A stretch of DNA of 64,000 bases from Caldilineales bacterium. Lineage in GTDB: Bacteria > Chloroflexota > Anaerolineae > Caldilineales > Caldilineaceae. The translations under genes were made by a program, and so were the position numbers. The notes beneath the pieces are model-generated. The model had not been told where the DNA came from. It saw only the letters and a list, made by a program, of their open reading frames with translations, and did no database searches. The DNA lies in assembly GCA_012271135.1 (NCBI GenBank), contig JAAXGZ010000097.1, forward strand, positions 62,001-126,000, in the 5' to 3' direction. This document shows, piece after piece, positions 6,562 through 30,334 of the stretch (position 1 is its first letter; each line of letters opens with the position of its first letter).

Positions 6562-7482
6562 ATGATCGAAGTTTCGCAATTGACCAAGACCTACGGTGCC
6601 ATCACGGCATTGGATGCCGTGGAGTTCAGGATTGAACGGGGCGACATCGTGGGCCTGCTCGGCCCCAACGGTGCCGGCAAGACCACCCTGATTAAAATCA
6701 TGACCGGCTACCTGCACCCCGATGCCGGTACAGTCCGCATTGGCGATATCGACGTGATGGATGATCCCCTGGCGGTTCAGACCCGTATTGGATACCTGCC
6801 GGAAAACGCCCCCCTGTATCCGGAGTTGACGGTCCAGGGCTACCTGCTCCTGATGGCCGACCTCCACCGCATGGAACGCGACCGCCATGTGGAGGCCGTG
6901 CTCGAAGCAGCGGAAGCGACCGGTCTGACGGACCGCCTAACCCAGAAGATAGGCACGTTGAGCAAGGGCTACCGACAACGGGTAGGAATAGCGCAGGCCA
7001 TCATGCACAAGCCGGATTTGCTGATCTTCGACGAGCCGTCGGTGGGGCTCGATCCCACTCAGATCATTGAGACCAGAGCCCTGATTCGATCGCTGGCGGA
7101 GCACTCGACCATTATCTTCTCCACCCACATCCTGGCCGAGGTGGAGGCCCTGTGCGACCGGGTGTTAATCCTTCTCAACGGCAAGCTGCGCTCCAACGCT
7201 CGGTTGGACGAGCTGCAGGGCGCCACGGACGTGGTGCTGGTTCTTGACCGGGAGGAATCCGATCTCAAGCCGATACTGGCGCGTCATCCTGCCATCGGCG
7301 AAGTGCATCGACTGCCGGGAGCGAACGGCCAGGCCCGTTATCGGATTACCGCGGACGACGCCCAGGAGGTGAGCCCTCTTGTCTACCAGACTGCCGCCAA
7401 GGCCGGTTGGGCGGTACGCGAGCTATATTGCGAAACCGCGAGTCTAGAGTCCACCTTCAACGATCTGGCACTCCGGAACTGA
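6562..7482 (+). CDS. ABC transporter ATP-binding protein, Gld/CcmA-like
   Basis: A 306-residue cytoplasmic ATPase that would energise the permease encoded next. Walker A is GPNGAGKTT near residue 36, the signature is LSKGYRQRVGIAQA, and Walker B is LLIFDEPSVGLDP. The H-loop sits in FSTHILAEVEALCD. A C-terminal extension of about 90 residues follows, as in GldA/NatA-type ATPases of ABC-2 exporters. The permease starts 75 bases downstream, and ATPase, fused permease and DUF4340 protein form one likely operon. Confidence 0.93.
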   Translation: MIEVSQLTKTYGAITALDAVEFRIERGDIVGLLGPNGAGKTTLIKIMTGYLHPDAGTVRIGDIDVMDDPLAVQTRIGYLPENAPLYPELTVQGYLLLMADLHRMERDRHVEAVLEAAEATGLTDRLTQKIGTLSKGYRQRVGIAQAIMHKPDLLIFDEPSVGLDPTQIIETRALIRSLAEHSTIIFSTHILAEVEALCDRVLILLNGKLRSNARLDELQGATDVVLVLDREESDLKPILARHPAIGEVHRLPGANGQARYRITADDAQEVSPLVYQTAAKAGWAVRELYCETASLESTFNDLALRN

Positions 7483-7557
7483 GCCCCTGGCCGCCCTCGT
7501 CGAGACCGGCGGGGATCGTTTCGAGCCCTTTGTCCACACCCTTCGCCATCTCCTGCA

Positions 7558-10437
7558 ATGAAGCATTTGCGTTCGCTTGTCGGCAAGGAACTGGAGAGCT
7601 ACTTTGGCTCTCCCATGGCCCTGATCTTCCTCGGCGTGTTCCTGGTATTCACGCTGTACACCTTTTTCTGGGTGGAAGCCTTCTTTGCCGGAGGCCTGGC
7701 GGAACTGCGGGGTCTTTTCCGGTGGATGCCCATTCTGCTGATCTTCCTGATTTCCGCCCTGACCATGCGGCAGTGGAGCGAGGAACAGCGTTCGGGAACG
7801 CTGGAGACGCTGTTGACCCTGCCCGTGGGTTCGCTCACGCTGGTGGCCGCCAAGTTCGCGTCCGTGATGATCATGGTGGCACTGGCGCTGGCACTCACAC
7901 TCCCCCTGCCCGTCACCGTGGCCAACCTGGGAAACATCGACTGGGGTCCGGTTGCCGCCGGCTATCTGGCCACGCTGCTGTTGAGTGCGGCCTACGTGGG
8001 CTTGGGCTTGTTTGCCTCGTCCCGTACCGACAACCAGATCGTCGCCCTCATCATCACGGTGGTCGTAGGCGGCCTCCTCTATTTCGCCGGCAGTACCACG
8101 GCCACCGAATTCTTGCCGCCGGCCATGGCCGATTTCCTGCGCGCCATCGGCACCGACAGCCGCTTCCAAAGCATCCAGCGCGGTGTGCTGGACCTGCGCG
8201 ACCTGGTCTACTACCTGACCCTGACCGGCATGTTTCTGACCCTGAACGTACTGTCGGTACAGTCCATTCGCTGGAGCCGCGGCCACGACCGGGTCCGACA
8301 ACGCGAGATCTTGTTGTCATCCCTCCTGATCGCCAATCTGGTCCTGTCGAACATCTGGCTGCATCCCCTGCGCTTCCTGCGCGTGGACGTGACGGAACAG
8401 CAGGAATATTCCCTTTCGGAAACCACGAAGACCTTGCTGGATGGCCTGGTCGAACCGCTCAAAATCACCGGATTCTTCAGTGCCAAGACGCATCCGCAGT
8501 TGGCCCCGGTGGTATCCGGTATTGCCGACATGCTGGCCGAGTACGACATCGCGGGCGGCGCCAACGTGGAAGTCCAGGTCCTAGACCCGACCACCGATCC
8601 CGACCTGGAACTCGATGCCACCCAAACCTACGGCATCAATCCGATCCCGTTCCAAATCGAGGAACGGTACGAATCGGCGGTCCGCAATTCCTACTTCCAT
8701 GTGCTGATCCGCTATGCCGACCAGCACATCATCCTGCAGGTGGCCGATCTGGTGAAGGTGACCAACGACCGGGACGGCACGACCAACGTACAACTCGATA
8801 CCTTGGAATACACCCTGACGCGGGCCATCAAACAGGTGGTATATGGCTTCCAGAGCGTGGAGGCCGTGCTGGACAGTTTGGGCGAACCCGTGATGCTGTC
8901 GTTCCTCGTGACCCCCGGCCAACTAAACGAGCAGGCCAATACCGACATGGAACTCATCATTGCCACCGGTGAGGAGCTGGCAGCCAGCTCGGAGTACTTC
9001 GAGTTCGAAGTTGTCAACCCGGACGCGGAAGGTGCCCGGTTCCCGCGCGAGATGCTGATCAACTCCTGGGGCCTTGAGCCCTATCCCCCATCCATGGTGT
9101 CGCCCAGCGACTACTACTTCCACCTGGTCCTGGATCTGGCAGGGGAACTGCACCTGATATTCCCCAGGGGCGGAATCTCGCGATCCTCAATCAGAACCGT
9201 GATCGACGAGACCATTCAACGAACCCAGCCGGGATTCCTGCGCACGGTCGGCCTCTGGCTGCCCCCCAATATTCCCACGCAGTCGATCCTGGGCCAGCAG
9301 CTTGACCCGTTGGCTTCGTGGAACACGGTACAGAGTTCACTCTCGTCCGAGTTCGAAGTGGAAGTGGTCGACCTCGAATCAGGACCGGTTGGGGATCACA
9401 TCGACGTCCTGTTCCTGATCGCGCCCCAGTACATGTCGGAGTTCTCCCTGTTCGCCGTCGACCAGTTCCTCATGCGCGGCGGCTCCCTGATTGTGGCCGC
9501 CTCGAACTTCGGCATTGCACCCCATCCGCTGAGCGGAGACCTGTCACTGACCGGCACCCCGCTGAACCTCAACGAAATGCTGGCCCACCACGGCATCGTT
9601 GTTGAACCACTGCTGGTTCTCGACCTTCAAAACACACCTTTCCCGGTCAACATTCCGCGCCAGGTGGACAACCTTACGGTCAGTGAGTACCAGGCTCTCG
9701 ACTATCCCTTCTTCGTGGATATCCGCTCGGACGCCATGGAGGGCAACCATCCGGCCGTGTCCGGCCTGCCTGCCGTCACCCTCAACTACGCTTCGCCGAT
9801 TACCATCGACCCCGAACTCAACGCCGAGCGCGACGCGGTCACGCTCCTGTATTCCAGCGAGGACTCCTGGGTCACCGACGTGCCCGACATCCAACCCAAC
9901 TTCGAAGCCCATCCAGACTTTGGTTTCGACGTGGCGCCGGAAGATGTGCGCAAGCGCCATCCCCTGGCGGTGACGGTCCAGGGGCGCTTCGACAGCTTCT
10001 TCAAGGATCGTCCCAACCCGTGGCTGGAGGAGGGCGCGGAATCACCGGAAGGTACGGAAAGCCTCCTGACGGATTTCAACGTCATCGAATCGTCCCCGCC
10101 CGACACCCGGCTGGCGGTCATCGGCAGTGCAGAGTTCCTGGACGACCTGATCCTCGACCTGATGCGCATCCTGGTACAGGACCAGGTCACCAACAACCTC
10201 CTGTTCGTGCAAAACCTGGTCGACTGGAGCCAGGAGGATGTGGAACTGCTTTCGATTCGGGCGCGGGGCAACACCATTCGCCTTCTCAAGCCCCTAACCC
10301 AGCAGGAACAGATCCGGTTCGAGGTCCTGAACTACGTCGTTGCGCTGTTGGCTCTTGTCGTCATTGCCGCCATCTGGCGGTGGCGCTCAACCAATCAGAT
10401 CCCGCTTGACGCCGATCCCGGCGAGCGCATGCTGTAG
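7558..10437 (+). CDS. Fused ABC-2 permease and GldG-type auxiliary protein
   Basis: A 959-residue protein combining two normally separate parts. Residues 1 to about 245 are an ABC-2 permease with six hydrophobic segments, beginning with a conserved KELESYFGSPMALIF helix like GldF. From about 255 the GldG-type part begins with a membrane anchor, then DVTEQQEYSLSETTKTLL, and a long extracytoplasmic region ending in a C-terminal helix (VVALLALVVIAAIWRWR) followed by a short tail. In Bacteroidota GldA, GldF and GldG support gliding; elsewhere such triads are uncharacterised exporters. The neighbours (ATPase before, DUF4340 after) fit that organisation. The transported substrate is unknown. Confidence 0.9.
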   Translation: MKHLRSLVGKELESYFGSPMALIFLGVFLVFTLYTFFWVEAFFAGGLAELRGLFRWMPILLIFLISALTMRQWSEEQRSGTLETLLTLPVGSLTLVAAKFASVMIMVALALALTLPLPVTVANLGNIDWGPVAAGYLATLLLSAAYVGLGLFASSRTDNQIVALIITVVVGGLLYFAGSTTATEFLPPAMADFLRAIGTDSRFQSIQRGVLDLRDLVYYLTLTGMFLTLNVLSVQSIRWSRGHDRVRQREILLSSLLIANLVLSNIWLHPLRFLRVDVTEQQEYSLSETTKTLLDGLVEPLKITGFFSAKTHPQLAPVVSGIADMLAEYDIAGGANVEVQVLDPTTDPDLELDATQTYGINPIPFQIEERYESAVRNSYFHVLIRYADQHIILQVADLVKVTNDRDGTTNVQLDTLEYTLTRAIKQVVYGFQSVEAVLDSLGEPVMLSFLVTPGQLNEQANTDMELIIATGEELAASSEYFEFEVVNPDAEGARFPREMLINSWGLEPYPPSMVSPSDYYFHLVLDLAGELHLIFPRGGISRSSIRTVIDETIQRTQPGFLRTVGLWLPPNIPTQSILGQQLDPLASWNTVQSSLSSEFEVEVVDLESGPVGDHIDVLFLIAPQYMSEFSLFAVDQFLMRGGSLIVAASNFGIAPHPLSGDLSLTGTPLNLNEMLAHHGIVVEPLLVLDLQNTPFPVNIPRQVDNLTVSEYQALDYPFFVDIRSDAMEGNHPAVSGLPAVTLNYASPITIDPELNAERDAVTLLYSSEDSWVTDVPDIQPNFEAHPDFGFDVAPEDVRKRHPLAVTVQGRFDSFFKDRPNPWLEEGAESPEGTESLLTDFNVIESSPPDTRLAVIGSAEFLDDLILDLMRILVQDQVTNNLLFVQNLVDWSQEDVELLSIRARGNTIRLLKPLTQQEQIRFEVLNYVVALLALVVIAAIWRWRSTNQIPLDADPGERML

Positions 10438-10485
10438 CCTGCGCCCGTTTCCCGGTTGGCCGACACAATCCACCTTGATTCCGCG

Positions 10486-11562
10486 ATGCAGACCATCACC
10501 AGCCTGTTTGTCAACCGCTCCCAACGGGACCTGTTCAACGTACTGGCCGTCCTGTTGCTGCTGCAGATCGCGGCCGCGGTGGCCCTGGTGGTTCCCTGGG
10601 ATCTCCGCGCGCCCGAACGGGAACCCGTGCGCCTTCTGACTGGCATGCAGGATGCAACTGTCAGGGAACTGCAGATTGAGGACATGCAGGGCAACGTCAT
10701 CCATTTGATTCGCGAAGACGACGGGGAATGGCGGTTCAACGACTTCGACGGCTATCCCGCTTCCAACATCCTAGCCAATCAACTGATCGAGGACATGGTC
10801 GAGCTGGACGACGCGCGGCCGGTGACACAGACCGCCGGCAGCCATGACCGGTTGAGGGTCGGCGAGGAGAATTTCGAACGGCGGCTTACGGTCACCCTGG
10901 TTACGGATGAGGAAGTCGTGGCCTATGTGGGCACGGCACCCCTACCCCGGGCCACGCACGTACGGGCGGCGGACCAGCAGGCGGTATACATCTCCACCGA
11001 CCTGAAGCACCGGGAGGTTTCAACCCAAATCACGCGCTGGCTGGATACCATCTACTACTCGGAAGGACAGGGCGACATCCGAGAATTCAACCTGACCAAT
11101 CCCAACGGAACCTTCAGCTTCAAGCGCGGCGAGGACGATCAGTGGATGATGGAAGGGTTGGCCGAAGGCGAGGTCTTCAACCCGAACAACCTCATCTCCC
11201 TGGTCACCACCGTGTCCACCATCAGCCTGACCCGGCCCTTGGGCAAGCAGGAACTGCCCGAATACGGAATGCTCAACCCACAGGCAGTTGCCACGTTCCG
11301 CGTCCAGGACGACGATGAAGACGAGATGGTGTCCATCGTGATCGGCGCCAACACCGAACGAGCCAATCGGGTCGTGATCAAATCGACCGAATCGGAATGG
11401 TTCGTGGAGGCCAACCGCTTCACGATTGACCGCCTGATCGAACGGACCCGCGACGAATTCCTCGTCAAGCAGCCCGAACCGGAACCCGCGGGCGAACCCA
11501 TCCAAGAGGAAGTTCCGGCTCCTCCAGCGGAGCCGGAAGCAACCCCGGTAGAAAGCGAATAG
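10486..11562 (+). CDS. DUF4340 domain protein, membrane-anchored
   Basis: A 358-residue protein from the ATG at 10486 (an in-frame TTG at 10456 is less likely). One N-terminal transmembrane segment (FNVLAVLLLLQIAAAVALVV) anchors a large extracytoplasmic region containing repeated beta-rich units, as in DUF4340 proteins. Examples are the segments around VRELQIEDMQGN and IREFNLTNPNGTFSF. The C-terminus is a Pro/Glu-rich tail. DUF4340 proteins are found next to GldG-like ABC systems in many phyla, which matches its place 48 bases after the fused permease. Its biochemical role is not established. Confidence 0.82.
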   Translation: MQTITSLFVNRSQRDLFNVLAVLLLLQIAAAVALVVPWDLRAPEREPVRLLTGMQDATVRELQIEDMQGNVIHLIREDDGEWRFNDFDGYPASNILANQLIEDMVELDDARPVTQTAGSHDRLRVGEENFERRLTVTLVTDEEVVAYVGTAPLPRATHVRAADQQAVYISTDLKHREVSTQITRWLDTIYYSEGQGDIREFNLTNPNGTFSFKRGEDDQWMMEGLAEGEVFNPNNLISLVTTVSTISLTRPLGKQELPEYGMLNPQAVATFRVQDDDEDEMVSIVIGANTERANRVVIKSTESEWFVEANRFTIDRLIERTRDEFLVKQPEPEPAGEPIQEEVPAPPAEPEATPVESE

Positions 11563-11596: not shown

Positions 11597-12640
11597 ATGT
11601 CCCCAGCCCCTGAAACCGGGCCGGATCCGCTGGACATCGAGATCCCAAACCACCTGCTCCGCTGGTTGGAGGAGCAGGAACTGGCCGCCCCGGGTGAGAA
11701 GATTGAAACCTCGGTGCTGGCCGGTGGCGTCTCCAACCGGACTGTCCGCGTGCAAGCCAGTGACCGCGACCTGATCGTCAAGCAAGCCCTGTCAAGGTTG
11801 CGGGTGGAGGACGAGTGGTTCAGTCCAACCGACCGCATCCTCACCGAGTTTGCCGCATTGGGGGTGTACGGCTCGCTTTTACCAGGTCAGGTGCCGGAGC
11901 CGGTTCGACAGGACCGGGAACGAAACATCATCGCGATGGCCGCGGTGCCGGAACCCCATGCGAACTGGAAAGCACGCTTGCTGGAGGGAAATGTTGATCC
12001 CGGTTCGTGGCAGGAGTTCGGCCGCATGCTGGCTCACGTCCACGACAGGGCCAGACCGCAGGTCGACCGGCTGCCGGCGCGCTTTCAGTCCAAGATGCAC
12101 TTTCACTCGCTCCGGCTGGACCCGTACTATTTGGTGAGCGGCCTGCGGGTCCCACAAGCTGCCGACTTCATGCAGGAACTTGTGAACGCGGCAACGATCT
12201 CACGCAACACGCTTGTCCACGGCGACTATAGCCCCAAGAATGTCCTGCTGCAGGGCCGAAGGCTGTGGCTGCTGGACTTTGAAGTCAGCCACGTGGGCAC
12301 ACCCTGGTTCGATGTTGGTTTCGCACTTACTCATGCGCTGGCCAAGGCCCTGTGGTCGCCGCTGTGGCGTAGGCAGTTTCTGCAGGGAGCCAAGGCCTTC
12401 TGGAGTGGCTACCGGCAACGTTCCGGAAGGGCAGTTGCCCAGGATGGGGGTGAAGCCGCAGGGTGCAGGCACACTGTTGGTTGCCTGCTAGCCAGAGCGG
12501 TGGGCCGGTCCCGACTGGAATACTTGGACGATGCCCAGTTGGACCGCCAGTGTTCGCTGGCCCTGCGGCTGATGGCCAACCCTCCCTCCACCATCCCCGA
12601 CTTGATCCGCGAGTTTGCCGGGTTGCTCGGGGGGATTTGA
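11597..12640 (+). CDS. Aminoglycoside/choline-kinase-like phosphotransferase
   Basis: A 347-residue protein of the APH/choline kinase fold, which phosphorylates a hydroxyl on a small molecule using ATP or GTP. The catalytic loop is LVHGDYSPKNVLL near residue 210 (Asp as base, Asn for metal), and the following metal-binding segment is LLDFEVSHVGTPWFDVGF. An N-lobe lysine in DLIVKQAL and a preceding GGVSNRTVRV strand fit the nucleotide site. The altered enolase gene starts 28 bases downstream, so the kinase product could be the substrate of that enzyme; this is inference. Resistance is not implied by the family alone. Confidence 0.82.
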   Translation: MSPAPETGPDPLDIEIPNHLLRWLEEQELAAPGEKIETSVLAGGVSNRTVRVQASDRDLIVKQALSRLRVEDEWFSPTDRILTEFAALGVYGSLLPGQVPEPVRQDRERNIIAMAAVPEPHANWKARLLEGNVDPGSWQEFGRMLAHVHDRARPQVDRLPARFQSKMHFHSLRLDPYYLVSGLRVPQAADFMQELVNAATISRNTLVHGDYSPKNVLLQGRRLWLLDFEVSHVGTPWFDVGFALTHALAKALWSPLWRRQFLQGAKAFWSGYRQRSGRAVAQDGGEAAGCRHTVGCLLARAVGRSRLEYLDDAQLDRQCSLALRLMANPPSTIPDLIREFAGLLGGI

Positions 12641-12668: not shown

Positions 12669-13946
12669 ATGTTTACCATAGACGACCTGGAAGCCCATGA
12701 AATCCTGGATAGCAGGGGCCGTCCAACCGTCAAGGCGTCACTGCTGCTGTCATCCGGGCATTCCGGTACGGTGTCCGTTCCCTCTGGCGCATCCACCGGC
12801 ATCCACGAAGCCCATGAACTACGAGACGGGGATCCGCACCGTTACCGGGGCAACGGCTGCCTGAAGGCCGTGAATTCGGTTCGGCACATCGGGGCGGAGA
12901 CAGCCAGTCGGCCCTGGCGTTCCCAGCAGGAATTGGACAACTTCCTGATCGATCTGGATGGCACCCCCAACAAGTCCCGGCTAGGCGCAAACGCAGTACT
13001 CGCCGTCTCGCTGGCGTTCGCACGCGCGGTTGCCGGAGCGAAAAGCCAAAGCCTTTGGCGACACTTCGCGTCGTTTCGCACCGACGGCGCATCCATGCCC
13101 GCGCAACTACCCTCGCCCACCATCAACCTGTTCAGCGGTGGGGTCCATGCCGGAAAGCAGGTCGCGCTGCAGGATGTACTTGTCCTGCCGTTGCCGGAGC
13201 GCCCGATTGACGAACAAATGGCGGCCATGGCCGAAGTGTATGCCTGCGCGGTTGACCTGATCGCCCGCGACTACGGCCAACGCAATCTGACCGCCGACGA
13301 AGGAGGCTTGGCCCCAACCTTCAAGAACACCCATGAAATGTTGGCCCAGGCCGACGATTGCTGTCGCGCCGCAGGTTTGGAACCGGGGATCGACTACAAA
13401 CTGGCAATCGATGCTGCCGCCAGCCATTTCCATGAGGACGGCCGTTATTACGTGGACGGCAAGGACCTGTCCACCGGGGAGTTAATCTCTCTGTATCGAA
13501 CCTGGTGTCGGGCCTACCCAATGCACAGCATCGAGGATGGGTTGGCCGAAGACGACTGGACTGGCTGGCAGGAGCTGTGCGCGGAACTCGGCGATTCCAC
13601 CATCGTCCTGGGCGACGATCTGCTGTGCACGAACCCGAACCGAATCAGGCGTGCGGCGGGGTCGGCCTGTGCCAACGCCCTTTTGCTGAAAGTCAACCAA
13701 ATCGGGACGCTCAGCGAAGCGCGGGATGCCCTCGAACTGGCGCGCGGCTACGGTTGGCACGTGGTTGTGTCAGCCCGCAGCGGCGAGACCGAGGACGACT
13801 GGCTGGCCGATCTGGCGGTAGGTTGGCAGGCGGACAACATCAAGGTCGGTTCCATTACCCAGTCGGAACGACTGGCCAAGTACAACCGGTTGCTTTACTT
13901 GGGCAACCGCAAACCGTTTGATCCCGAAGCTGGACGTTTGGCCTGA
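12669..13946 (+). CDS. Enolase paralogue with altered active-site residues
   Basis: A 425-residue full-length enolase-fold protein. The start ATG at 12669 has an AGGGAAGG site just upstream and follows the kinase by 28 bases. The capping loop SVPSGASTG, the metal ligands (Asp248, Glu289, Asp317), the general base Lys341 (LLKVNQIGTLSE), Glu211 (TADEGGLAP), Arg370-Ser371 and Lys392 are all present. Two canonical positions differ. The active-site His of SHRSGETED is Ala369 (SARSGETED), and the Glu of the IQEF segment is Asp169 (LQDVLVLP). NGGxHA has become SGGVHA, keeping the His. It may act on a different phospho-hydroxyacid or be a weak enolase; whether the genome has a canonical enolase is not visible here. 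Confidence 0.85.
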   Translation: MFTIDDLEAHEILDSRGRPTVKASLLLSSGHSGTVSVPSGASTGIHEAHELRDGDPHRYRGNGCLKAVNSVRHIGAETASRPWRSQQELDNFLIDLDGTPNKSRLGANAVLAVSLAFARAVAGAKSQSLWRHFASFRTDGASMPAQLPSPTINLFSGGVHAGKQVALQDVLVLPLPERPIDEQMAAMAEVYACAVDLIARDYGQRNLTADEGGLAPTFKNTHEMLAQADDCCRAAGLEPGIDYKLAIDAAASHFHEDGRYYVDGKDLSTGELISLYRTWCRAYPMHSIEDGLAEDDWTGWQELCAELGDSTIVLGDDLLCTNPNRIRRAAGSACANALLLKVNQIGTLSEARDALELARGYGWHVVVSARSGETEDDWLADLAVGWQADNIKVGSITQSERLAKYNRLLYLGNRKPFDPEAGRLA

Positions 13947-13997: not shown

Positions 13998-14093
13998 CCC
14001 ACGCACCTTTACCCGCGCGATACGATCGATTTTGGCGCAGTGGCTTGACGCGTCGGACGATACTGCCATCCACCAACCCATGGACCCTTGCCC

Positions 14094-15134
14094 ATGCCTG
14101 CCATTGCCCCTTCGGACCTCAACGACCTTGTAACCGGAATTCTGCATGGCTCGGGGCTGCCCGAGGATCAGGCCCGGCGCACGGCCGACCATCTGGTTGA
14201 ATCGAACTTGATGGGGCACGACTCGCACGGGGTGCTGCGAGTCCCCGGATATGCCGAACAAATTGAAAAGGGCAGCATCAAGGCTCTTGGTTCCCAGATT
14301 GTGGAACGGGATTCGTCGGCGACGGCGGTCGTGGATGCCGACGGCAGCATCGGCATTCTCATGGCCTACGAAGCGATGGAAATGGCAACCCGGAAGGCCC
14401 AAGCGGTCGGCGTCGGGGTTGTGACCGTGCGCAGGGCCAGCCACATTGGACGGTTGGGTGCATTTCCCCCATTGGCCGCCGCCCAGAACTGCATTGGCAT
14501 CATCATGCTTAATGGAGGAGCCCGTTTCGCGGCCCCCTTTGGAGGCACGGACCGTCGGCTTCCTCCAAATCCCTTGGCCATCAGTGCCCCCACCGATACG
14601 GACGCTCCCATGATGCTGGACATCACCACCAGCATGGTTGCCGGTGGCAAGCTGGAAGTTCTAACGGCGCGCAATCAGGAGGCACCGGAGGGTTGGCTCG
14701 TGGACGGCGAGGGCAACACCGTCACCGACCCCGCGCTGTTGCGCACGCCCCACGCTGCCATGCTTCCACTGGGCGGTGCCCTGGGACACAAGGGATACGG
14801 CCTGTCCATGATGATCGACGTTATGGCAGGAGCATTGTCCAGGGCGGGATGCAGCCGGGAAAACCCCACCCGGGGCGCCAGCGGGTTCCTGTGCATGGCC
14901 TTGCAAATTGAAGCCTTCGTCGACATGGACGAATACCGCACCGAAGTGCGTCATCTGATTGACTGGATCAAATCCTCCCGCTTGATGCCGGGAACGGATC
15001 AAATCTACCTCCCTGGCGAGATCGAGCAGCAGCGCATCAGGGAGCGGACTGCCAGCGGAATCCCGATCGAGGACGCGACCTGGAATCGCATCGTCGAGTC
15101 GGCATCGAAGTACGGAATACCGGTTCCCGCCTAA
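14094..15134 (+). CDS. LDH2-family malate/L-lactate/ureidoglycolate dehydrogenase
   Basis: A 346-residue NAD(P)-dependent 2-hydroxyacid oxidoreductase of the LDH2/MDH2 family, which is structurally unrelated to ordinary LDH. Characteristic segments are MGHDSHGVLRVPGY near residue 45, the catalytic-type His in RASHIGRLG, an APFGG/PNPLAIS nucleotide loop and GHKGYGLSMMIDV in the last third. The ATG at 14094 is used rather than an in-frame TTG six bases earlier. The beta-propeller gene begins 21 bases downstream. Family members act on malate, sulfolactate, ureidoglycolate or keto-gulonate; the substrate here is unknown. Confidence 0.88.
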   Translation: MPAIAPSDLNDLVTGILHGSGLPEDQARRTADHLVESNLMGHDSHGVLRVPGYAEQIEKGSIKALGSQIVERDSSATAVVDADGSIGILMAYEAMEMATRKAQAVGVGVVTVRRASHIGRLGAFPPLAAAQNCIGIIMLNGGARFAAPFGGTDRRLPPNPLAISAPTDTDAPMMLDITTSMVAGGKLEVLTARNQEAPEGWLVDGEGNTVTDPALLRTPHAAMLPLGGALGHKGYGLSMMIDVMAGALSRAGCSRENPTRGASGFLCMALQIEAFVDMDEYRTEVRHLIDWIKSSRLMPGTDQIYLPGEIEQQRIRERTASGIPIEDATWNRIVESASKYGIPVPA

Positions 15135-15155: not shown

Positions 15156-15875
15156 ATGGACGGCAACGGTCGTTTTGAACGGATTTTCAGGTCCCCCTAC
15201 GCTGTGCCCAACGGCATCGCAGCCTGTCCGGACGGCGTTTGGGTTGTGGATCAGATCACGGACCGGGTGGCCCTGGTCAGCCTGGACGAACCCAACGAAT
15301 ACCAGGTAACCCATTTCCTGAAGGACTACCCCAGCGATTCGTCGAACACCAGCGGCATGTGCTGGCACGACGGGGATCTCTGGCTGGCAGCCAACGGGAG
15401 TTCGGACCTATGGCGGCCATCCCGTGAACAGGATGCGCGGAAAGGGGCCGGCGAGGTGTTGAGGATGGATACCGACACCGGCGCACTGAAGGAACGGCGT
15501 CTCCTACCCGGTGGCGGCGGCACGCACGGCATCGAGGTTGACTGCCGGGATCCGGACTACATCTGGCTGAGCACCTTGTCCAGGCAGACTCTCAGCCGGG
15601 TTCGCATAGCGGACTGGTCCGTTACCGCAACCATTCCGCTCCAGCACGATCGATCCCACGGTCTGGTCAGCACCGACAAGGCACTGTGGATCGTCTACAC
15701 CAACGAACGGACCATCGTCGAGACGGATCCGGATACCGGCGAGCCCGGTCGGACCATCAACATTCCCGACAACATGCCGCAACCGCACGGAATGACGCGG
15801 CAAGGCGCCGACTTTCTGTACTGCGACGCGACCAGCGGTTGGATTGTGAGAGTCCACGACGTTATCGACGGCTGA
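15156..15875 (+). CDS. Beta-propeller (YncE/SMP-30-like) protein
   Basis: A 239-residue protein made of repeated WVVD, LWLAAN, IWLSTL and LWIVYT blades, typical of NHL/YncE/SMP-30 propellers, with GGGTHGIEVD and DRSHGLVSTD loops. The start at 15156 has a GGAGG site six bases upstream. No signal peptide is evident, so it is predicted to be cytoplasmic. SMP-30 relatives are lactonases, but the metal-ligand set cannot be confirmed here. It follows the LDH2-type gene closely and may act on a related sugar acid or lactone. Confidence 0.7.
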   Translation: MDGNGRFERIFRSPYAVPNGIAACPDGVWVVDQITDRVALVSLDEPNEYQVTHFLKDYPSDSSNTSGMCWHDGDLWLAANGSSDLWRPSREQDARKGAGEVLRMDTDTGALKERRLLPGGGGTHGIEVDCRDPDYIWLSTLSRQTLSRVRIADWSVTATIPLQHDRSHGLVSTDKALWIVYTNERTIVETDPDTGEPGRTINIPDNMPQPHGMTRQGADFLYCDATSGWIVRVHDVIDG

Positions 15876-16673: not shown

Positions 16674-17552
16674 CTATGTGCTATCTGTAGGAACCAGTTT
16701 CTCCACCCGCGGACGCAACGCACCAATCACGGTCTCGAAAGCTGGCAGGTCTGACACCAACGGGCCAAGCCATTGCTCCCAGGTCTCTTCGACATTCACA
16801 AGCATGCGCTCATCGAAGAAATCGTTCGGGCCTGTAAACGAAACGTCCCGGACCGCGCATTTCTCTCGGAGCAACAAGTCGAAGTCTGCCAATTCCATCC
16901 GGTCCCCATAGGTATCGAGCACACACCAGAGGTCGTAGTAGTCGCGGGCGCGTGAACGGCTCCAGCCGCGCGCCCTGAATAGGGCCGCCTGCTGGAGCAG
17001 CGCCCGTAGCTTCTCGGCAACGGTCTCCTCAAGGGAATACACTGGGACCTTGACGTTCAAGGGTTCTCCATACGCGTGGATGACCCGCCTGTTCTTCGGG
17101 GTCCACAGGATGCTTTCGTCCACGGTGATCTCGATCATGACGCGGGTCTGGATGCGGCTGTGCCAGGGAAACCGCGCTCGAAGAATGAAAGCCTCCTGAC
17201 CTCCTGGATGCGGCTCCCTCTCCGTGTAACGCTCGCAGAGGATCTCTACAGGCGCGTATTCGTCCAGTAGCCGAACCGCAGTCTCGCACGATTCCCCTAC
17301 CAGCCTCTCCATCTCATCGCCTGTAGGAACCTCCTCCAGCGCAGAGAAATCCAAGTCTTCGGAGAAGCGGTAGTCGCCGAAGTAACACTTCCTTAGAGCC
17401 GTTCCGCCTTTGAACACCAGCGTGTCACGGAGCGCAGGCACTTGGGTGAGACCAGCCAGCACCCAAGACTGCAGATAATCCCTTTCGAGCGCTTCCCAAG
17501 GAATGCCCAGATGCTGCCGCGCTTCCTGTAGCCGTGTACGAAGGGGTCTCAC
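16674..17552 (-). CDS. AbiEii/AbiGii-type nucleotidyltransferase toxin
   Basis: A 292-residue toxin component of a type IV (AbiE) system, a DNA-polymerase-beta-fold nucleotidyltransferase. Motif I is FKGGTALRKCYF (Gly49-Gly50) with the metal-binding FSEDLDFS (Asp66, Asp68). Further motifs are YSLEETVAEKLRAL and the conserved RARDYYDLW near residue 200. The start is the GTG at 17552, which overlaps the antitoxin stop as GTGA, the usual AbiE arrangement. A longer in-frame start at 17603 would overlap the antitoxin by 55 bases and is unlikely. AbiE systems act in phage abortive infection and in stabilising mobile DNA. Confidence 0.88.
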   Translation of the reverse strand: MRPLRTRLQEARQHLGIPWEALERDYLQSWVLAGLTQVPALRDTLVFKGGTALRKCYFGDYRFSEDLDFSALEEVPTGDEMERLVGESCETAVRLLDEYAPVEILCERYTEREPHPGGQEAFILRARFPWHSRIQTRVMIEITVDESILWTPKNRRVIHAYGEPLNVKVPVYSLEETVAEKLRALLQQAALFRARGWSRSRARDYYDLWCVLDTYGDRMELADFDLLLREKCAVRDVSFTGPNDFFDERMLVNVEETWEQWLGPLVSDLPAFETVIGALRPRVEKLVPTDST

Positions 17553-18409
17553 GCCTCTACCATTCCCGGCAAGTTCTCCTGGACCATCCAGCGGCTGTTG
17601 CACGATCCCTTCCGGGGTCCTGTGGGATCGAGCCTGCAGTAACCCTTGATGGGCAGCTCCGTCAACACCGCCAATTCAGACTTGGGAACGCCCTGGGATT
17701 CCAGTACCCATCCCAGACGCTTGGCAGTCGTCACTCCCAGTCTGACGGCATATTCCGAGATGAGTTCGGTATTCAACCGATCCATGCCGACTTGTACTGC
17801 GTGCAGCACTTCGGCGAATCCCCCACAGTACCGGGGCATGGAAAGGCCATCCAACAATGTGCGCTCCAGATCCGTTATGGGTACGCGAACCTCGCCGATC
17901 CACTGCTGCCCGCCGCCAAAGAAGCGGTCGGGTTTGACCTGGATGAACCTGTACAACGTATCTCCTGCCTGGAAACCGCTTCCGGGCTTCTCCGCCCTGT
18001 CCTTCCTCGGACGGGGAATCCAGGCGTCCGTGGTGGTAAGAACGAACACGTCCCTCGGTATCTGCTCTGTCAACCCGTGATAGTGCAGAGCCGACCAGTG
18101 GGAGATCATGGCTGGAGAGACGAGGGCCGCGGCGACTTCGAATTCATGGGCGGCTACAACCCCGGGCACCATGGAAGAGAGCGCGTAGAGTCCTCGGCGA
18201 AGCGACACGATCCAGTTGTTCCTACGGAGGTGGTGCAAGGCTTCGACAAGGTAGGCGTCCTGCAGGCCGACGCGGGGTGCCAGCTTCCTGGCCCTGTCAG
18301 TTGTAAAGATGCGGTCTCCCTCATAAGCAAGGAGCCGGACCAACTCGATGCCGACAAGGGATTGCTTGGGCTTTGTACCGACTGCCATTGAAGCTTCCAA
18401 GGATTGCAT
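17549..18409 (-). CDS. AbiEi-type antitoxin with winged-helix domain
   Basis: A 286-residue antitoxin and probable autorepressor. The N-terminal part (IFTTDRARKLAPRVGL, then ALHHLRRNNWIVSLRRGLYAL) is the AbiEi winged helix-turn-helix, followed by the conserved SHWSALHYHGLTEQIPRDVFV and the segment ITDLERTLLDGLSMPRYCGG. It is longer than the roughly 200-residue lactococcal form, as in many chromosomal relatives. ATG 18409 is used; ATG 18388, preceded by a GGAAG, is a close alternative. A good promoter lies 27 bases upstream, and the stop overlaps the toxin start by four bases. Confidence 0.87.
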   Translation of the reverse strand: MQSLEASMAVGTKPKQSLVGIELVRLLAYEGDRIFTTDRARKLAPRVGLQDAYLVEALHHLRRNNWIVSLRRGLYALSSMVPGVVAAHEFEVAAALVSPAMISHWSALHYHGLTEQIPRDVFVLTTTDAWIPRPRKDRAEKPGSGFQAGDTLYRFIQVKPDRFFGGGQQWIGEVRVPITDLERTLLDGLSMPRYCGGFAEVLHAVQVGMDRLNTELISEYAVRLGVTTAKRLGWVLESQGVPKSELAVLTELPIKGYCRLDPTGPRKGSCNSRWMVQENLPGMVEA

Positions 18410-18781
18410 CTGGACGAACAAGCGGCTGGTTTGAAAATTTACAGCAAAAGTTGGACAGTATCAAAGGATCTGTGACCTTTGGGGGAAGATAAGAAGTTAG
18501 GGAATAGATAGCATCATCTTCTGCGGCTGTGTTGGGATGAATGACAAAACCGGCTAGGGTCCGCAGGACCAACTCCAGGTTGTTGCCAACCATACCCCCA
18601 CGCCGTGAGGCCATCCGCATTCAAGACCACGGCCGTACAGGCGAAAGCATCGGCCCGATCGGACGATGGAGGAAGTGTGCCTACGTCGCATACCCTGTGG
18701 CACCTGCGCCTGAAGAACCAGTTCACCAGCAGGGGTATAGACAATCCCTCTCCCGGACCCAGGTCTAGTTACAGTGGTAAT
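18410..18781. other. Gap between AbiE and the transposase remnants
   Basis: Apart from the AbiE promoter, this 370-base stretch has no frame that resembles a protein. It is locally AT-rich near 18430-18530 and then returns to the high GC of the transposase remnant. No terminal inverted repeat or target duplication could be recognised by eye. Confidence 0.4.
18436..18464 (-). promoter_or_regulatory. Promoter of the AbiE operon with a possible operator
   Basis: Reading leftward, TTGATA (18464-18459) and TAAATT (18441-18436) are separated by 17 bases and stand 27 bases before the antitoxin ATG. The inverted repeat CAAAGG-N8-CCTTTG at 18462-18481 overlaps the -35 edge. That is where an autorepressing AbiEi would be expected to bind. 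Confidence 0.5.
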
Positions 18782-19962: not shown

Positions 19963-20742
19963 TCAGCCCTTTTGCACCCAGCCGCCGTCCACGTTCAGCA
20001 CCTGGCCCGTCACATTGACGGCCCGGCACAGGTACAAGGCAGCCTCTGCAATGTCTTCCACCGTTTGCGGTCTACGTAGCGGCACATTGGCATCCAGTTT
20101 CTCCTGTATCCAAGTGGCATAGTCCGGACGCTGCGCGGCACCGAAGCGGGCCACGTTGGCCCGATAAACCCGTTCCTGCATGGGTGTGTCCACGATTCCG
20201 GGAGCGATCAGGTTGCAGCGAACCCCGAATTCGGCCATATCCAGGGCCATGACCTGCCCGAAATTGATCAGCGCGGCCTTGGCGGCGCTGTAGGGAGGAT
20301 CGTTGCGGGCGCCAAACTGCCCGGACACCGAGGCCAGCAGCACGAAGCTCCCGTCGCCTCGTTGGACCATGGGTTCGACGAAGGCGTGGGCCACATGAAC
20401 TGCACCCAGGGTATTGACCTCGAATATCCCCTTCCAGTCCGACGGGGCCAACCGCCAGAAAGGGAACCCCGACTTGCCGGAACCCAGCCCCACGGCATAG
20501 AGCACATGGTGGACAGGGGCCTGCACCTCGCACTTCTTGGCCACGGCTTGCACCGCGTCCCAGTCCGTGACATCGGCCCTCAGGCTGTAGCCGTGCAGTT
20601 CCGCAGCCACAGTTTCGACCTGCTGATCCCGGTCCACCAGGGTCAACTTCGCTCCGACGTCGTACAGGGCCCTGGCAATGGCTGCGCCGATACCCCTCCC
20701 CGCCCCGAACACCACCGCATGACGGTTGGCTATCTGCGACAT
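19963..20742 (-). CDS. SDR family oxidoreductase
   Basis: A 259-residue short-chain dehydrogenase that reduces or oxidises a carbonyl/hydroxyl with NAD(P). The dinucleotide motif is GAGRGIGAA near residue 13, and the active site shows LLASVSGQFGARNDPPYSAAKAALI (Ser, Tyr, Lys), with the C-terminal TGQVLNVDGGW. The start is the ATG at 20742; an upstream in-frame extension lacks homology. Note that the usual NNAG is replaced by VLYAVGLGSG, a variant seen in some SDRs. The neighbour upstream is an enolase-superfamily enzyme, so a sugar acid substrate is plausible. Confidence 0.85.
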   Translation of the reverse strand: MSQIANRHAVVFGAGRGIGAAIARALYDVGAKLTLVDRDQQVETVAAELHGYSLRADVTDWDAVQAVAKKCEVQAPVHHVLYAVGLGSGKSGFPFWRLAPSDWKGIFEVNTLGAVHVAHAFVEPMVQRGDGSFVLLASVSGQFGARNDPPYSAAKAALINFGQVMALDMAEFGVRCNLIAPGIVDTPMQERVYRANVARFGAAQRPDYATWIQEKLDANVPLRRPQTVEDIAEAALYLCRAVNVTGQVLNVDGGWVQKG

Positions 20743-20776
20743 AGTTGCGCTGTCCCGTAGTGTCCTGGTACTGACT

Positions 20777-22042
20777 TCAGCCGGATGCGATGAGGTAGCC
20801 GGTGGCGGAAACCCGTCGGTGGAGTTCAACCAGCTCCGGGTCGTCCCCGACATCGATTATGGTGGTGGTCACCCCCGGCATGAGAACGGGCAGAGTTCCC
20901 CTGCGGAAGAACGCCCAAACTGCCGACGAGTTGTGGGAATTGTTCGCGAAATGCACCGTGAGGCCATCCGGTTGACGATAGGTAACGATGCGCGGCGGAA
21001 GGTCAATTTCGTCGCCGCGTGCCTTGAATCTGGATAGCGCTTCTCGGTCAAGATCCACACCAAGTCCCGGTCCGTCCGGCACGGTCACGAGTCCGTGTCG
21101 CACTTCAAGCGGATCCGTCAAGAGATCGTGTTCGTATATGCCGGTGCACGTGATGGCGGGCCACTGGGCGTGGGAAAGCACCGAGCCGATGTGCGCCGCC
21201 AAGGCAGCGGTTAGACCGGTGCCCACCATTTGCAGGAAGAAGGGCTGTCCATATGCCGCAGCCGCGTGTCCGCCGCGCATGACAGCGGAAACCCCGCCCG
21301 CCATGACGTACCCGTCACATCCGCCGTGGTCAATGCGGAGCGCAAGTTCGTCCGAGTAGTGATGGGCTACCGGACAGGTAATGGCGTCGCGAATGGCCTT
21401 GTTGCCGCTGGAGTCAGCAGCCGGGATTGGCCCCTCCACAAGCGCCATTTTCGGAAACCGGTCCTCCAAATGCCTCAGCACCGGGATGGCGCGGGGCGCG
21501 GATAACAGGAAGTCGTTCCAGTCCGTATCGATTTCAAACGTGTCCGGCGTGGCATCGCTGATCAGGTCAAGGGTCTCGACCACATCGAACCAAGGCCGCG
21601 TCTTGATCTTCATGCTGGTGTAGCCGTGTTCGATCGCCCACAACGCCTCCTGTCGATACAGACCAGGAGGCATGTCGTGGCCCCAGTGGGACACGGGACA
21701 ATGGGTTCTGCAGGGTTCGCCCAGCAAACGGGAGACTGGCACACCCGCTTCCTTGCCTGCGGCATCCAACAACGCCATCTGCAGTCCAGCACCCAGCCGG
21801 TCCTGCCACATGAGTTCGAACGGGTTGCCGCCGACTACGGCCTGATGGTCAACGGAACGGCCCCACGTGTAGTTCTGGATTGTCTCGCCCGTGCCGATGG
21901 CCCCGGACTCCAGTTCAACGATCGTCACTTCGACTTCGGACCAGGCATGGATCAACGCCCTCTCCATCTCTCGGCGGATGGCTTGCCGGGTGGGTACCCA
22001 CAACAGGTGAGTCTCAACGGAGACGATGCGCGATTGGCTCAT
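20777..22042 (-). CDS. Enolase-superfamily enzyme, mandelate racemase/muconate lactonizing type
   Basis: A 421-residue member of the MR/MLE group, whose members abstract an alpha proton from a carboxylate to racemise, dehydrate or cycloisomerise it. The C-terminal barrel shows the KxK catalytic pair (Lys145, Lys147 in MKIKTRPW) and metal ligands in EIDTDWND (Asp172), ALVEGPIP (Glu203) and HYSDEL (Asp231). The capping domain is N-terminal and includes NPFELMWQDRLGAGLQMALLDAAGK. Start is ATG 22042. It stands 34 bases upstream of the SDR, so the pair may process one sugar acid. The precise reaction cannot be assigned. Confidence 0.85.
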   Translation of the reverse strand: MSQSRIVSVETHLLWVPTRQAIRREMERALIHAWSEVEVTIVELESGAIGTGETIQNYTWGRSVDHQAVVGGNPFELMWQDRLGAGLQMALLDAAGKEAGVPVSRLLGEPCRTHCPVSHWGHDMPPGLYRQEALWAIEHGYTSMKIKTRPWFDVVETLDLISDATPDTFEIDTDWNDFLLSAPRAIPVLRHLEDRFPKMALVEGPIPAADSSGNKAIRDAITCPVAHHYSDELALRIDHGGCDGYVMAGGVSAVMRGGHAAAAYGQPFFLQMVGTGLTAALAAHIGSVLSHAQWPAITCTGIYEHDLLTDPLEVRHGLVTVPDGPGLGVDLDREALSRFKARGDEIDLPPRIVTYRQPDGLTVHFANNSHNSSAVWAFFRRGTLPVLMPGVTTTIIDVGDDPELVELHRRVSATGYLIASG

Positions 22043-22194
22043 GGGAAAATGCCAGCGTGGACGTAAGGTGCAGGCGGGGGCGGCCGGACCTTCGGCAAGG
22101 CCGGTACGCAACGGTGCAGTGAGTTGCCTGGCACCGCGATTCTACTCAAACCAGGACGGCTTCCGACTGCAGCACTTCCGTTCGCAGTCGAACG

Positions 22195-22959
22195 TCACCT
22201 GGCGGTCCAGCCGCCATCCATGACCTGCGTGGATCCTGTGATGGATCGCGCATCCGGTCCCACCAGGAACAGTGCCATCTGGGCCACTTCCTTCGATTCC
22301 ACCAAGCGTTTGACCGCGGCCGGTTCCAGTATGACGCGTTCGACCACCTCCGACTCCGGCATGCCGCGGATACGCGCCTGATCCGCGATCTGGTTCCGTA
22401 CCAGGGCCGTGTTGACGTATCCGGGACAAATGGCATTGACCGTGACACCGTAGGCGGCCACTTCCAACGCCGCCGTCTTGGTCAAACCCACCAGACCATG
22501 CTTGGCCGCGATGTACGCACCCTTGAACGGACTGGCAATGAGGCCGTGGACAGAGGCAATGTTGATGATGCGGCCCCATCCCTGTTGCTTCATGCCCGGG
22601 AGAACCGTTTTCATCAACTGAAAGGGGGCCGTAAGCATGACTTGGATGAGCCTGGACCACATGTCGTCGGAAAACTCATCAATGGCACTCACGTGTTGCA
22701 GACCGGCGTTGTTGACCAGGATGTCGATTGGGCCGAAATCCGCAACCACCCGGGAGCTCAGGTTGCGCACCGCTTCCATGTCGGACAAGTCGGCCTCGAC
22801 AAACGAAGCACCGATGGCCTCCGCCACTGCCTCCGCTGCGGGATCGATGTCGGTCACGATGACCCTTCCGGACTTGGCGGCGAATGCCGTAGCCACCGCT
22901 TCGCCGATTCCTCGGGCCGCACCGGTCACCAGCACGGTGGTGTCGTTCGCAATGGTCAT
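22195..22959 (-). CDS. 3-hydroxybutyrate dehydrogenase-like SDR
   Basis: A 254-residue NAD-dependent SDR closely resembling D-3-hydroxybutyrate dehydrogenase, which oxidises 3-hydroxybutyrate to acetoacetate. Seen are GAARGIGEA, ILVNNAGLQHV, the active-site run IINIASVHGLIASPFKGAYIAAKHG (Ser, Tyr, Lys) and NAICPGYVNT, all characteristic of that group. The ATG at 22959 has an AGGAG about 12 bases upstream. An ATG ten codons earlier (22989) overlaps the P450 stop as ATGA and is an equally serious start. The coupling with a P450 is unusual. Confidence 0.82.
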   Translation of the reverse strand: MTIANDTTVLVTGAARGIGEAVATAFAAKSGRVIVTDIDPAAEAVAEAIGASFVEADLSDMEAVRNLSSRVVADFGPIDILVNNAGLQHVSAIDEFSDDMWSRLIQVMLTAPFQLMKTVLPGMKQQGWGRIINIASVHGLIASPFKGAYIAAKHGLVGLTKTAALEVAAYGVTVNAICPGYVNTALVRNQIADQARIRGMPESEVVERVILEPAAVKRLVESKEVAQMALFLVGPDARSITGSTQVMDGGWTAR

Positions 22960-22985
22960 GGATTCCGGATTCTCCTGCCTGGCGC

Positions 22986-24377
22986 TCATGGGGAACCGGG
23001 ATTCACAGTCGACACGGGGCAAGTACCCGAGTGCGTCGGGCGACCGGACATCCTGATTGGGCCGTGTGGTTGCCAAGTCAGCAAAACGGGCCGGGCAGGC
23101 CGCATGGTTCCACGCGAAAAGATGGCAACGGGTTCGCGGGCGGATACGCTCCATGTACCCGCCTGCAGGCAGGCCAGCAGCACCGTCAACACCTCCATGT
23201 AGGCAAGGTTCATGCCGGGGCAGCGACGGGGACCGCCGCCAAACGGAATGAAGGCGTACCCTGCGTCCTTGGCTGCAGCCGGATCCAGGAAGCGCTCCGG
23301 ATCGAACACATCCGGGTTGGACCAGTGTTGAGGGTTCCTGTGAATCAGAAATGGCGAGATGTTGAGCAGATCCCCTTCGCGCACCACCAGGCCGGACGGC
23401 AAGGTATCCGACTCCAGGGCCACGCGCCGAATGGCCCAGCCGGCAGGGAACAACCTCAGGGCCTCATCAACGACGGCACGGCCGTAGCGAAACTTGGCCA
23501 GATCCTGAAGGGTCCAACTTCCGTCCGCAGGGAATGCCAAACTGGCTTCCTGCAACCGCCGCGCCACATCCGGATGTTGTCCAACCAGCAACAGAATCCA
23601 GCAGATGGTGGCCGACGTGGTTTCGTAGCCGGCCAAGAGCAGCGTTACCAGGTCGTCGCGCACCTCCTGTCTGGTGAACTTCGCCTCGCCGGATTCTTCA
23701 TCGTGCGCCAGACAGTAGCCAAGCACCGTCTGGTCATCCATGGTCCCTGCATCGATCCGGTCGTACACGAACCGGTCAATGGCGGCCAGATTCGAGTGAT
23801 AGGTGCGGGTCCACGGCCACGCCCGGGAGGTCAGGATTGATGGCAGTGCGGACTGCCAAACCTGCTGGGACACAAGATTGTCGAAGGATTCCAGAAACCT
23901 CCTCCATCCCTCCGGCCGTTCCGCTCCGAACAGAGCGGTGTAGATCACCCAGCGGGTAAGGGCGACGGCCGCTTCCTCGACCGTGGACGACGAACCCTCC
24001 ACCAGCCTGCGCACGGCTTCCCGGGTGCGGGCCTGAACCAAAGGGAAGTATCGGGCCAACTGCCGATGGTTGAACGCCTGCTTCAGTTCACGCCGATGGT
24101 GACGCCAAGCCGGACCTTCGGAGTTGGAAATCCCCTCCCCCAGAAGCCTTTCCGTTGTGTCCAGTCGCTTGCCATAGGCCTTCGCCCGGTCCTGCATGAC
24201 ATGCTTGACATCCGCCAGGTCGCTGATGACCGTAATCCGAACGGACCCGATCCGGAACCGTGCAATGTCTCCCTGGAGATGCCACTCCTGCTGAAAGAGG
24301 TTGTGCAGGTTTCCCCGCACCAGATACCTGATCGCCTGGAGGGGGTTGATCAGACGATACGGCGGATCCCTTGTCAT
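22986..24377 (-). CDS. Cytochrome P450
   Basis: A 463-residue haem monooxygenase. The oxygen-binding I-helix motif LLAGYETTSA is near residue 250, the ExxR pair is in DEALRLFP near residue 303, and the haem-binding loop is FGGGPRRCPGMNLA with Cys at about 386. PERFLDP precedes it. The N-terminus has no clear membrane anchor, so a soluble bacterial enzyme is likely, needing separate redox partners not present here. The C-terminus runs about 35 residues past the usual end, up to an ATGA overlap with a possible start of the following SDR. Start ATG 24377; substrate unknown. Confidence 0.9.
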   Translation of the reverse strand: MTRDPPYRLINPLQAIRYLVRGNLHNLFQQEWHLQGDIARFRIGSVRITVISDLADVKHVMQDRAKAYGKRLDTTERLLGEGISNSEGPAWRHHRRELKQAFNHRQLARYFPLVQARTREAVRRLVEGSSSTVEEAAVALTRWVIYTALFGAERPEGWRRFLESFDNLVSQQVWQSALPSILTSRAWPWTRTYHSNLAAIDRFVYDRIDAGTMDDQTVLGYCLAHDEESGEAKFTRQEVRDDLVTLLLAGYETTSATICWILLLVGQHPDVARRLQEASLAFPADGSWTLQDLAKFRYGRAVVDEALRLFPAGWAIRRVALESDTLPSGLVVREGDLLNISPFLIHRNPQHWSNPDVFDPERFLDPAAAKDAGYAFIPFGGGPRRCPGMNLAYMEVLTVLLACLQAGTWSVSAREPVAIFSRGTMRPARPVLLTWQPHGPIRMSGRPTHSGTCPVSTVNPGSP

Positions 24378-24482
24378 GGCCGGACTCAACTGACCTGCCC
24401 GTTGGTCACGGCCACCACACCGTCGCCTGCAGACCGGGATGCCCAAGGCGCGGCAATGCTGGCCGTGAACTCGCCTCCCGGA

Positions 24483-30043: not shown

Positions 30044-30334
30044 GAATGGACACTCCGGAAGTTGTTGGTGGACACTCGATGCAGTGCCAAGGGCACCAGC
30101 CCGTGTGCACCTGCACATGGCAGCTTGAAGGCGGCGTACCAACCCGCCGTCTTCCATGCCGGCCACGCCTTGTTGCGAAACCACGGGCACCATTGTGGCC
30201 CAAACCCTTGCCCGCGCATGTAGGTGTAGCCAACCCGGACACAGGAAGGCTGCGCCGGAACCGCGAGATTCCAACCCAAATGAATGCAGGTAAGATCTCC
30301 GAACACCACTACTCGCATGGAGGACAGACAGACC

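Follow-up and report, generated by a model that had tools for sequence, protein, structure and literature searches.

An enolase subfamily with coupled active-site substitutions, present in at least 13 bacterial phyla and co-inherited with an APH-fold kinase

A 64,000-nucleotide stretch of a Caldilineales genome (contig JAAXGZ010000097.1, positions 62,001 to 126,000; here, the window) encodes an enolase paralog, termed ENO', that belongs to a distinct and widespread enolase subfamily of single origin, which is marked by coupled changes at residues invariant in canonical enolases. The ENO' gene and that of an adjacent APH-fold kinase form a module whose co-inheritance is well supported. On balance, we favor the view that ENO' is a non-glycolytic enolase that, with the upstream kinase, dehydrates a 2-phospho acid distinct from 2-PG on its C3 side. 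Enolase serves in textbooks to illustrate an invariant enzyme, and a single function is usually assumed for its subgroup. The relevant features of the window are as follows.

6562 to 7482, plus strand: GldA-like ABC ATPase, upstream, common to the genus only
7558 to 10437, plus strand: GldF/GldG-type fused ABC permease/substrate protein, a genus-level neighbor
10456 to 11562, plus strand: DUF4340 protein, a genus-level neighbor, 34 bp before the kinase
11597 to 12640, plus strand: APH-family small-molecule kinase, the conserved partner (PF01636, 74 bits; Lys62, Asp210, Asn215, Asp227, and Glu229 intact)
12669 to 13946, plus strand: ENO', enolase paralog with Glu168 to Asp169 and His373 to Ala369 changes (yeast numbers first), assigned from profiles, alignment, and fold
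13173 to 13175, plus strand: Asp169 codon (yeast enolase Glu168); Asp in 110 of 110 subfamily members
13773 to 13775, plus strand: Ala369 codon (yeast His373); Ala in 110 of 110 members, 96 of them found via the motif itself
14088 to 15134, plus strand: Ldh_2-type 2-hydroxyacid dehydrogenase (malate/lactate/sulfolactate-like), the next gene (PF02615, 344 bits; order kept in genomes G001 to G003)
15156 to 15875, plus strand: beta-propeller protein with a weak Vgb_lyase match, beside the Ldh_2 gene across the genus, of uncertain membership in the module

The ENO' reading frame is uninterrupted and full length (425 amino acids), with an ATG start preceded by a good ribosome-binding site. Its product scores 419 bits against the TIGR01060 enolase equivalog model (cutoff, 300) and exceeds the Pfam cutoffs for both Enolase_N and Enolase_C, bearing out the complete enolase gene claimed in an earlier note on this DNA; the match to MR_MLE_C (24.4 bits) lies below the threshold of 29.4. 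Alignment to canonical enolases revealed that ENO' keeps Ser39, His160 (yeast His159), Glu211, the metal ligands Asp248/Glu289/Asp316, the base Lys341 (yeast Lys345), and Arg370 (Arg374), Ser371 (Ser375), and Lys392 (Lys396), and that Asp169 and Ala369 take the places of yeast Glu168 and His373. The list of retained and changed residues in the earlier note is thus exact, and its description of the protein as lacking the active-site histidine holds for His373 but not for the other active-site histidine, His159, which is kept. The AlphaFold model of ENO', derived from a 24-sequence alignment, has a mean pLDDT of 90 and matches solved enolases, including 2-PG complexes, with TM scores of 0.91 to 0.94. 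The best-matching solved structure is the Chloroflexus enolase, and the tree neighbors are Anaerolineales. Both residue changes occur in the orthologs of three congeners (91 to 95% identity) and in ENO' proteins from ten more genomes of the same family (57 to 61% identity); their recurrence there and in relatives from other phyla rules out a sequencing artifact. Within the genus, the dN/dS ratio of 0.12 to 0.19 indicates purifying selection, which, together with fixation of both changes in 110 of 110 full-length sequences, agrees with the prior claim that the gene is not decaying.

A motif search ([x]-S-A-R-S-G-E-T-E-D) of a public genome collection, with counts that describe a sample, retrieved at least 115 loci, and all 115 among the matches listed encode enolases. 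Asp in place of Glu168 was not among the search criteria, yet 96 of the 96 full-length proteins among the matches listed have it. These loci cover at least 13 phyla: Pseudomonadota, Acidobacteriota, Actinomycetota, Verrucomicrobiota, Planctomycetota, Chloroflexota, Bacteroidota, Bacillota, Armatimonadota, Deinococcota, Balneolota, Myxococcota, and Spirochaetota. Within the phylum of the window the distribution is patchy (9 of 301 genomes, the window genome included). A maximum-likelihood tree built from 171 sequences separates 110 SARSGETED proteins from 54 canonical enolases by a single branch (SH-aLRT support, 100), which confirms a placement outside ordinary enolases. Glu168 and His373 are invariant in the 54 sampled canonical sequences, whereas Asp and Ala occupy these sites in all 110 ENO' proteins. 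The two groups share no or almost no residues at positions 152, 156, 169, 187, 369, 393, 194, 209, and 396, the fully disjoint ones including 156, 169, 187, and 369. Conversely, 59 positions are common to both at >97%, among them the metal ligands, Lys341, Glu211, Arg370, Ser371, and Lys392. Arg370 and Ser371, the canonical 2-phosphate ligands, are invariant in ENO', as is His160; Ser39, which corresponds to a metal II ligand in yeast enolase, is replaced by Ala in approximately half of the subfamily. Our structure search found no solved member of the subfamily, the best PDB match of a proteobacterial member, 9no2, having SHRSGE. The kinase-ENO' pair of Enterobacter had no match in E. coli, and apparent phage matches to ENO' were all below 60% identity, the one inspected being an ordinary bacterial enolase. 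We found no description of such a subfamily in the open-access literature; an earlier account elsewhere is possible.

ENO' coexists with an ordinary enolase. The earlier note had advised looking for a second, canonical copy in the host genome, and it is indeed present, split over two contig ends: two further enolase fragments, one running up to the end of contig C125 and the other starting from an end of contig C55, together carry the canonical QEF and SHRSGETED motifs and thus most likely represent one ordinary enolase broken by assembly. This rules out ENO' as the housekeeping enolase. Two of the three outcomes that the earlier note named as refuting, a position inside ordinary enolases in the tree and the lack of a second enolase in the genome, were thus checked and did not arise. 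Each of the three congeners has one intact canonical enolase in addition to the ENO' ortholog, and a canonical enolase (SHRSGE, QE) was also present in 24 of 24 ENO' host genomes examined.

The kinase gene precedes ENO' by a 28-bp gap that contains the ribosome-binding site. Upstream sequence of at least 700 bp was available for 85 related loci; an APH kinase lies directly upstream on the same strand in 70 of these and elsewhere within the 8-kb locus in 4 more. The starts assigned in the related loci are approximate, and neighbor calls by reading frame length are imperfect in GC-rich DNA. The residues Lys62, Asp210, Asn215, Asp227, and Glu229, which make up the Lys, HGDxxxxN, and DxE motifs, are invariant in 75 of 75 kinases. 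The window kinase scores under every NCBIfam equivalog cutoff, and its best PDB match has an E value of about 4e-6. Pairwise distances of kinase and ENO' correlate strongly (r = 0.89; maximum of 1,000 permutations, 0.20), and the partial correlation is 0.90 given the distances of canonical enolases, a proxy for organism history (n = 16 genomes), which themselves correlate with the pair at only 0.35 to 0.49. The association thus extends beyond the species signal, indicating that the two genes travel together. On Rhizobium plasmids, the kinase is found inside the ENO' cluster at a distance of ~5 kb. A strictly obligate partnership is ruled out by several genomes of the window's family, in which seven ENO' clade members lack any APH homolog at an E value of ≤1e-12. 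A DUF1537 acid-sugar kinase adjoins ENO' in two genomes (G020 and G024) and might simply stand in for APH there, but another genome (G017) has both DUF1537 and APH kinases beside ENO'.

Beyond the kinase, the commonest neighbors of ENO' are genes for D-2-hydroxyacid dehydrogenases (29 loci), SDRs (14 loci), and FAH hydrolases (12 loci), with HpcH/HpaI aldolases, 2-keto-4-pentenoate hydratase, and sugar or tricarboxylate transporters also recurring. In the window, the Ldh_2 dehydrogenase is possibly the third enzyme of the module; it is a 2-hydroxyacid oxidoreductase, although of a fold differing from that of the D-2-hydroxyacid dehydrogenases of other loci. Roseibium and Paracoccus carry LacI, APH, ENO', FAH hydrolase, SDR, and sugar ABC transporter genes in one run, and in Pelagimonas the FAH hydrolase most resembles 2,4-didehydro-3-deoxy-L-rhamnonate hydrolase (LRA6-like), albeit below the cutoff of that model. 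To judge from sequence, the neighborhood layout is that of a putative diketo-hydrolase sugar-acid pathway, with the kinase and ENO' in the slot of the dehydratase. On a plasmid of Rhizobium sp. N324 (loci L219 and L221), the operon that holds ENO' also encodes an HpaD-like extradiol dioxygenase along with an ABC transporter of the branched-chain type, and the kinase and dehydrogenase of the cluster have as a neighbor an additional PEP carboxylase whose motifs are intact. A dedicated enzyme acting on an enol phosphate was not found in most ENO' loci, and no phosphonate biosynthesis genes (PEP mutase) were noticed among the neighbors. Upstream in the window, the GldA-like, fused GldF/GldG, and DUF4340 genes make up an ABC-transporter operon (6562 to 11562, plus strand) that runs into the kinase-ENO' pair in this genus only; the GldA-like ATPase is probably not a functional part of the module.

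In yeast enolase, Glu168 and Glu211 hold a water molecule close to His373, and substitutions at the Glu168 and His373 positions lower 2-PG activity. ENO' retains the means for proton abstraction, metal and phosphate binding, and general acid catalysis, has altered C3 walls, and is paired with a dedicated kinase, which together point to a 2-phospho acid with a different C3 side. The kinase would phosphorylate a 2,3-dihydroxy acid at its 2-hydroxyl, the probable substrate being a sugar acid with at least four carbons. ENO' would then bind the resulting 2-phospho acid through its metal site and Arg370/Ser371; Lys341 would take the C2 proton and Glu211 would assist loss of the C3 hydroxyl to yield an enol phosphate. 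The roles proposed for these retained residues parallel those in solved enolases, where an Arg and a Ser hold the phosphate of 2-PG, the substrate touches the equivalents of Glu168 and Glu211, and Glu211 acts as general acid when hydroxide leaves (PMC4450660, PMC4667285). The Glu168-to-Asp and His373-to-Ala changes may reshape the C3 pocket so that a substituted C3 fits. The enol phosphate, which might next be handled by pyruvate kinase, a phosphatase, or an enzyme akin to PEP carboxylase, would give a 2-keto-3-deoxy acid, which in some lineages may pass to an HpaI-type aldolase or to an SDR and an FAH hydrolase, as the neighboring genes suggest. The weakest step is the substrate class, for which these neighbors would indicate sugar acids of C4 or longer. 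Counted against the proposed mechanism are the missing enol-phosphate enzyme at most loci, the Ser39-to-Ala replacement in about half of the subfamily, the seven members without APH, and the Rhizobium PEP carboxylase, which would suit PEP as the product. Neighbors beyond the kinase vary, so a single substrate for the whole subfamily is unlikely. The shifted substrate suggested in the earlier note gains indirect support from the fixed, coupled C3-pocket changes, the kinase partner, and the 2-hydroxyacid and sugar-acid neighborhoods; neither the upstream kinase nor the breadth of the subfamily figures in that note. More tentatively, the kinase-ENO' pair could be how bacteria of at least 13 phyla dehydrate sugar or hydroxy acids at the expense of ATP, by a route not previously described.

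The best rival explanation is a glycerate-to-PEP branch, in which the APH protein would be a new D-glycerate 2-kinase and ENO' a true 2-PG enolase isozyme, leading from hydroxypyruvate via glycerate and 2-PG to PEP. In its favor are the commonest third partner, i.e., dehydrogenases resembling hydroxypyruvate/glyoxylate reductases, and the Rhizobium plasmids, where the genes for kinase and dehydrogenase neighbor one for a PEP carboxylase whose catalytic motifs are intact; PEP itself as the product would fit this cluster. We nonetheless consider it unlikely, given that a known glycerate 2-kinase family (PF02595 or PF13660) already occurs in 18 of 18 ENO' genomes checked and a canonical enolase in all genomes tested. 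It also leaves the fixation of Asp and Ala without a reason, as a normal 2-PG enolase would need neither and such substitutions in the yeast enzyme reduce 2-PG activity.

Other explanations reassign the chemistry or deny it. The kinase might act on the 3-hydroxyl, with ENO' taking the C2 proton and expelling phosphate to form a 2-keto-3-deoxy acid directly; this would place the changed residues at the leaving-group site and dispense with the enol-phosphate enzyme that most loci lack, but Arg370 and Ser371, which hold the 2-phosphate in canonical enolase, are invariant, as is His160, and this makes it improbable. Confinement of the ENO' changes to the C3 side and the PEP carboxylase neighbor in Rhizobium would also suit a 3-substituted 2-phospholactate (amine, sulfonate, or ether) that is converted to PEP and the free substituent. 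That reaction is quite improbable, since ENO' retains Glu211, the general acid for hydroxide loss, and amine or sulfonate genes are not consistently nearby. Finally, the absence from ENO' of a residue that canonical enolase keeps invariant could signal a decaying or moonlighting copy devoid of a catalytic role, which is hardly credible in light of the purifying selection on ENO', the single origin with both changes fixed in 110 sequences from at least 13 phyla, and the co-inheritance with an intact kinase.

Compared with known systems, ENO' resembles canonical enolase (TIGR01060/PF00113) in fold, length, the three metal ligands, the Lys base, Glu211, the Arg/Ser phosphate ligands, and Lys392, and scores above the equivalog cutoff. 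It differs in the Glu168-to-Asp and His373-to-Ala changes, in Asn155 being Gly or Ser, in a Thr-to-Val/Ile change after Lys392, and at the other disjoint positions, as well as in being always an extra copy in the tested genomes, paired with a kinase and probably not serving glycolysis. The partner kinase shares the fold family and the catalytic Lys, Asp, Asn, and Asp/Glu motif of PF01636 members such as methylthioribose kinase and corramycin phosphotransferase, but its similarity to characterized or solved members is weak. Mandelate-racemase-type sugar-acid dehydratases and the LRA5/LRA6 pathway likewise make a 2-keto-3-deoxy acid ahead of an SDR and an FAH hydrolase, as proposed for ENO', which in contrast belongs to the two-metal enolase subgroup and is accompanied by a kinase. 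The succession of 2-hydroxyacid dehydrogenase, 2-kinase, and enolase, sometimes with PEP carboxylase, is reminiscent of glycerate 2-kinase plus enolase in the serine cycle and glucarate routes, from which the module departs in its kinase fold and altered enolase active site, and in its coexistence with known glycerate kinases.

If the favored reading of ENO' as a non-glycolytic enolase is true, a single-origin, widespread branch with a fixed pocket change and its own kinase would represent a new function inside the enolase subgroup, many duplicate eno genes would be explained, and a systematic misannotation would be corrected. The Rhizobium and Roseibium ENO' copies are annotated as phosphopyruvate hydratase, and since ENO' passes the curated threshold for the glycolytic enzyme, the pair would be hidden in databases. 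With only two genes involved, the substrate is open to direct testing in vitro.

At about 30% identity, a distant and independent enolase-like clade still has the metal ligands and Lys345 but has lost Ser39, His159, Glu168, Glu211, and His373 (L047:5845-7104, L048:5693-6955, L049:2897-4222, L050:5363-6703, L051:5427-6719, L052:2854-4128, and L053:5851-7116); in 6 of these 7 loci, the gene is directly downstream of a DUF4147/MOFRL (glycerate 2-kinase-type) gene, a pairing that counts in favor of the kinase-enolase scheme proposed for ENO'. Elsewhere in the window, an AbiEii-type nucleotidyltransferase gene and a likely partner overlapping it upstream (16677 to 18421, minus strand) resemble a type IV toxin-antitoxin pair; two SDRs, a mandelate-racemase-like dehydratase, and a cytochrome P450 are clustered at 19966 to 24446 (minus strand); and an apiosidase-like glycoside hydrolase bearing a DUF5060 domain is encoded at 30284 to 31945 (plus strand).
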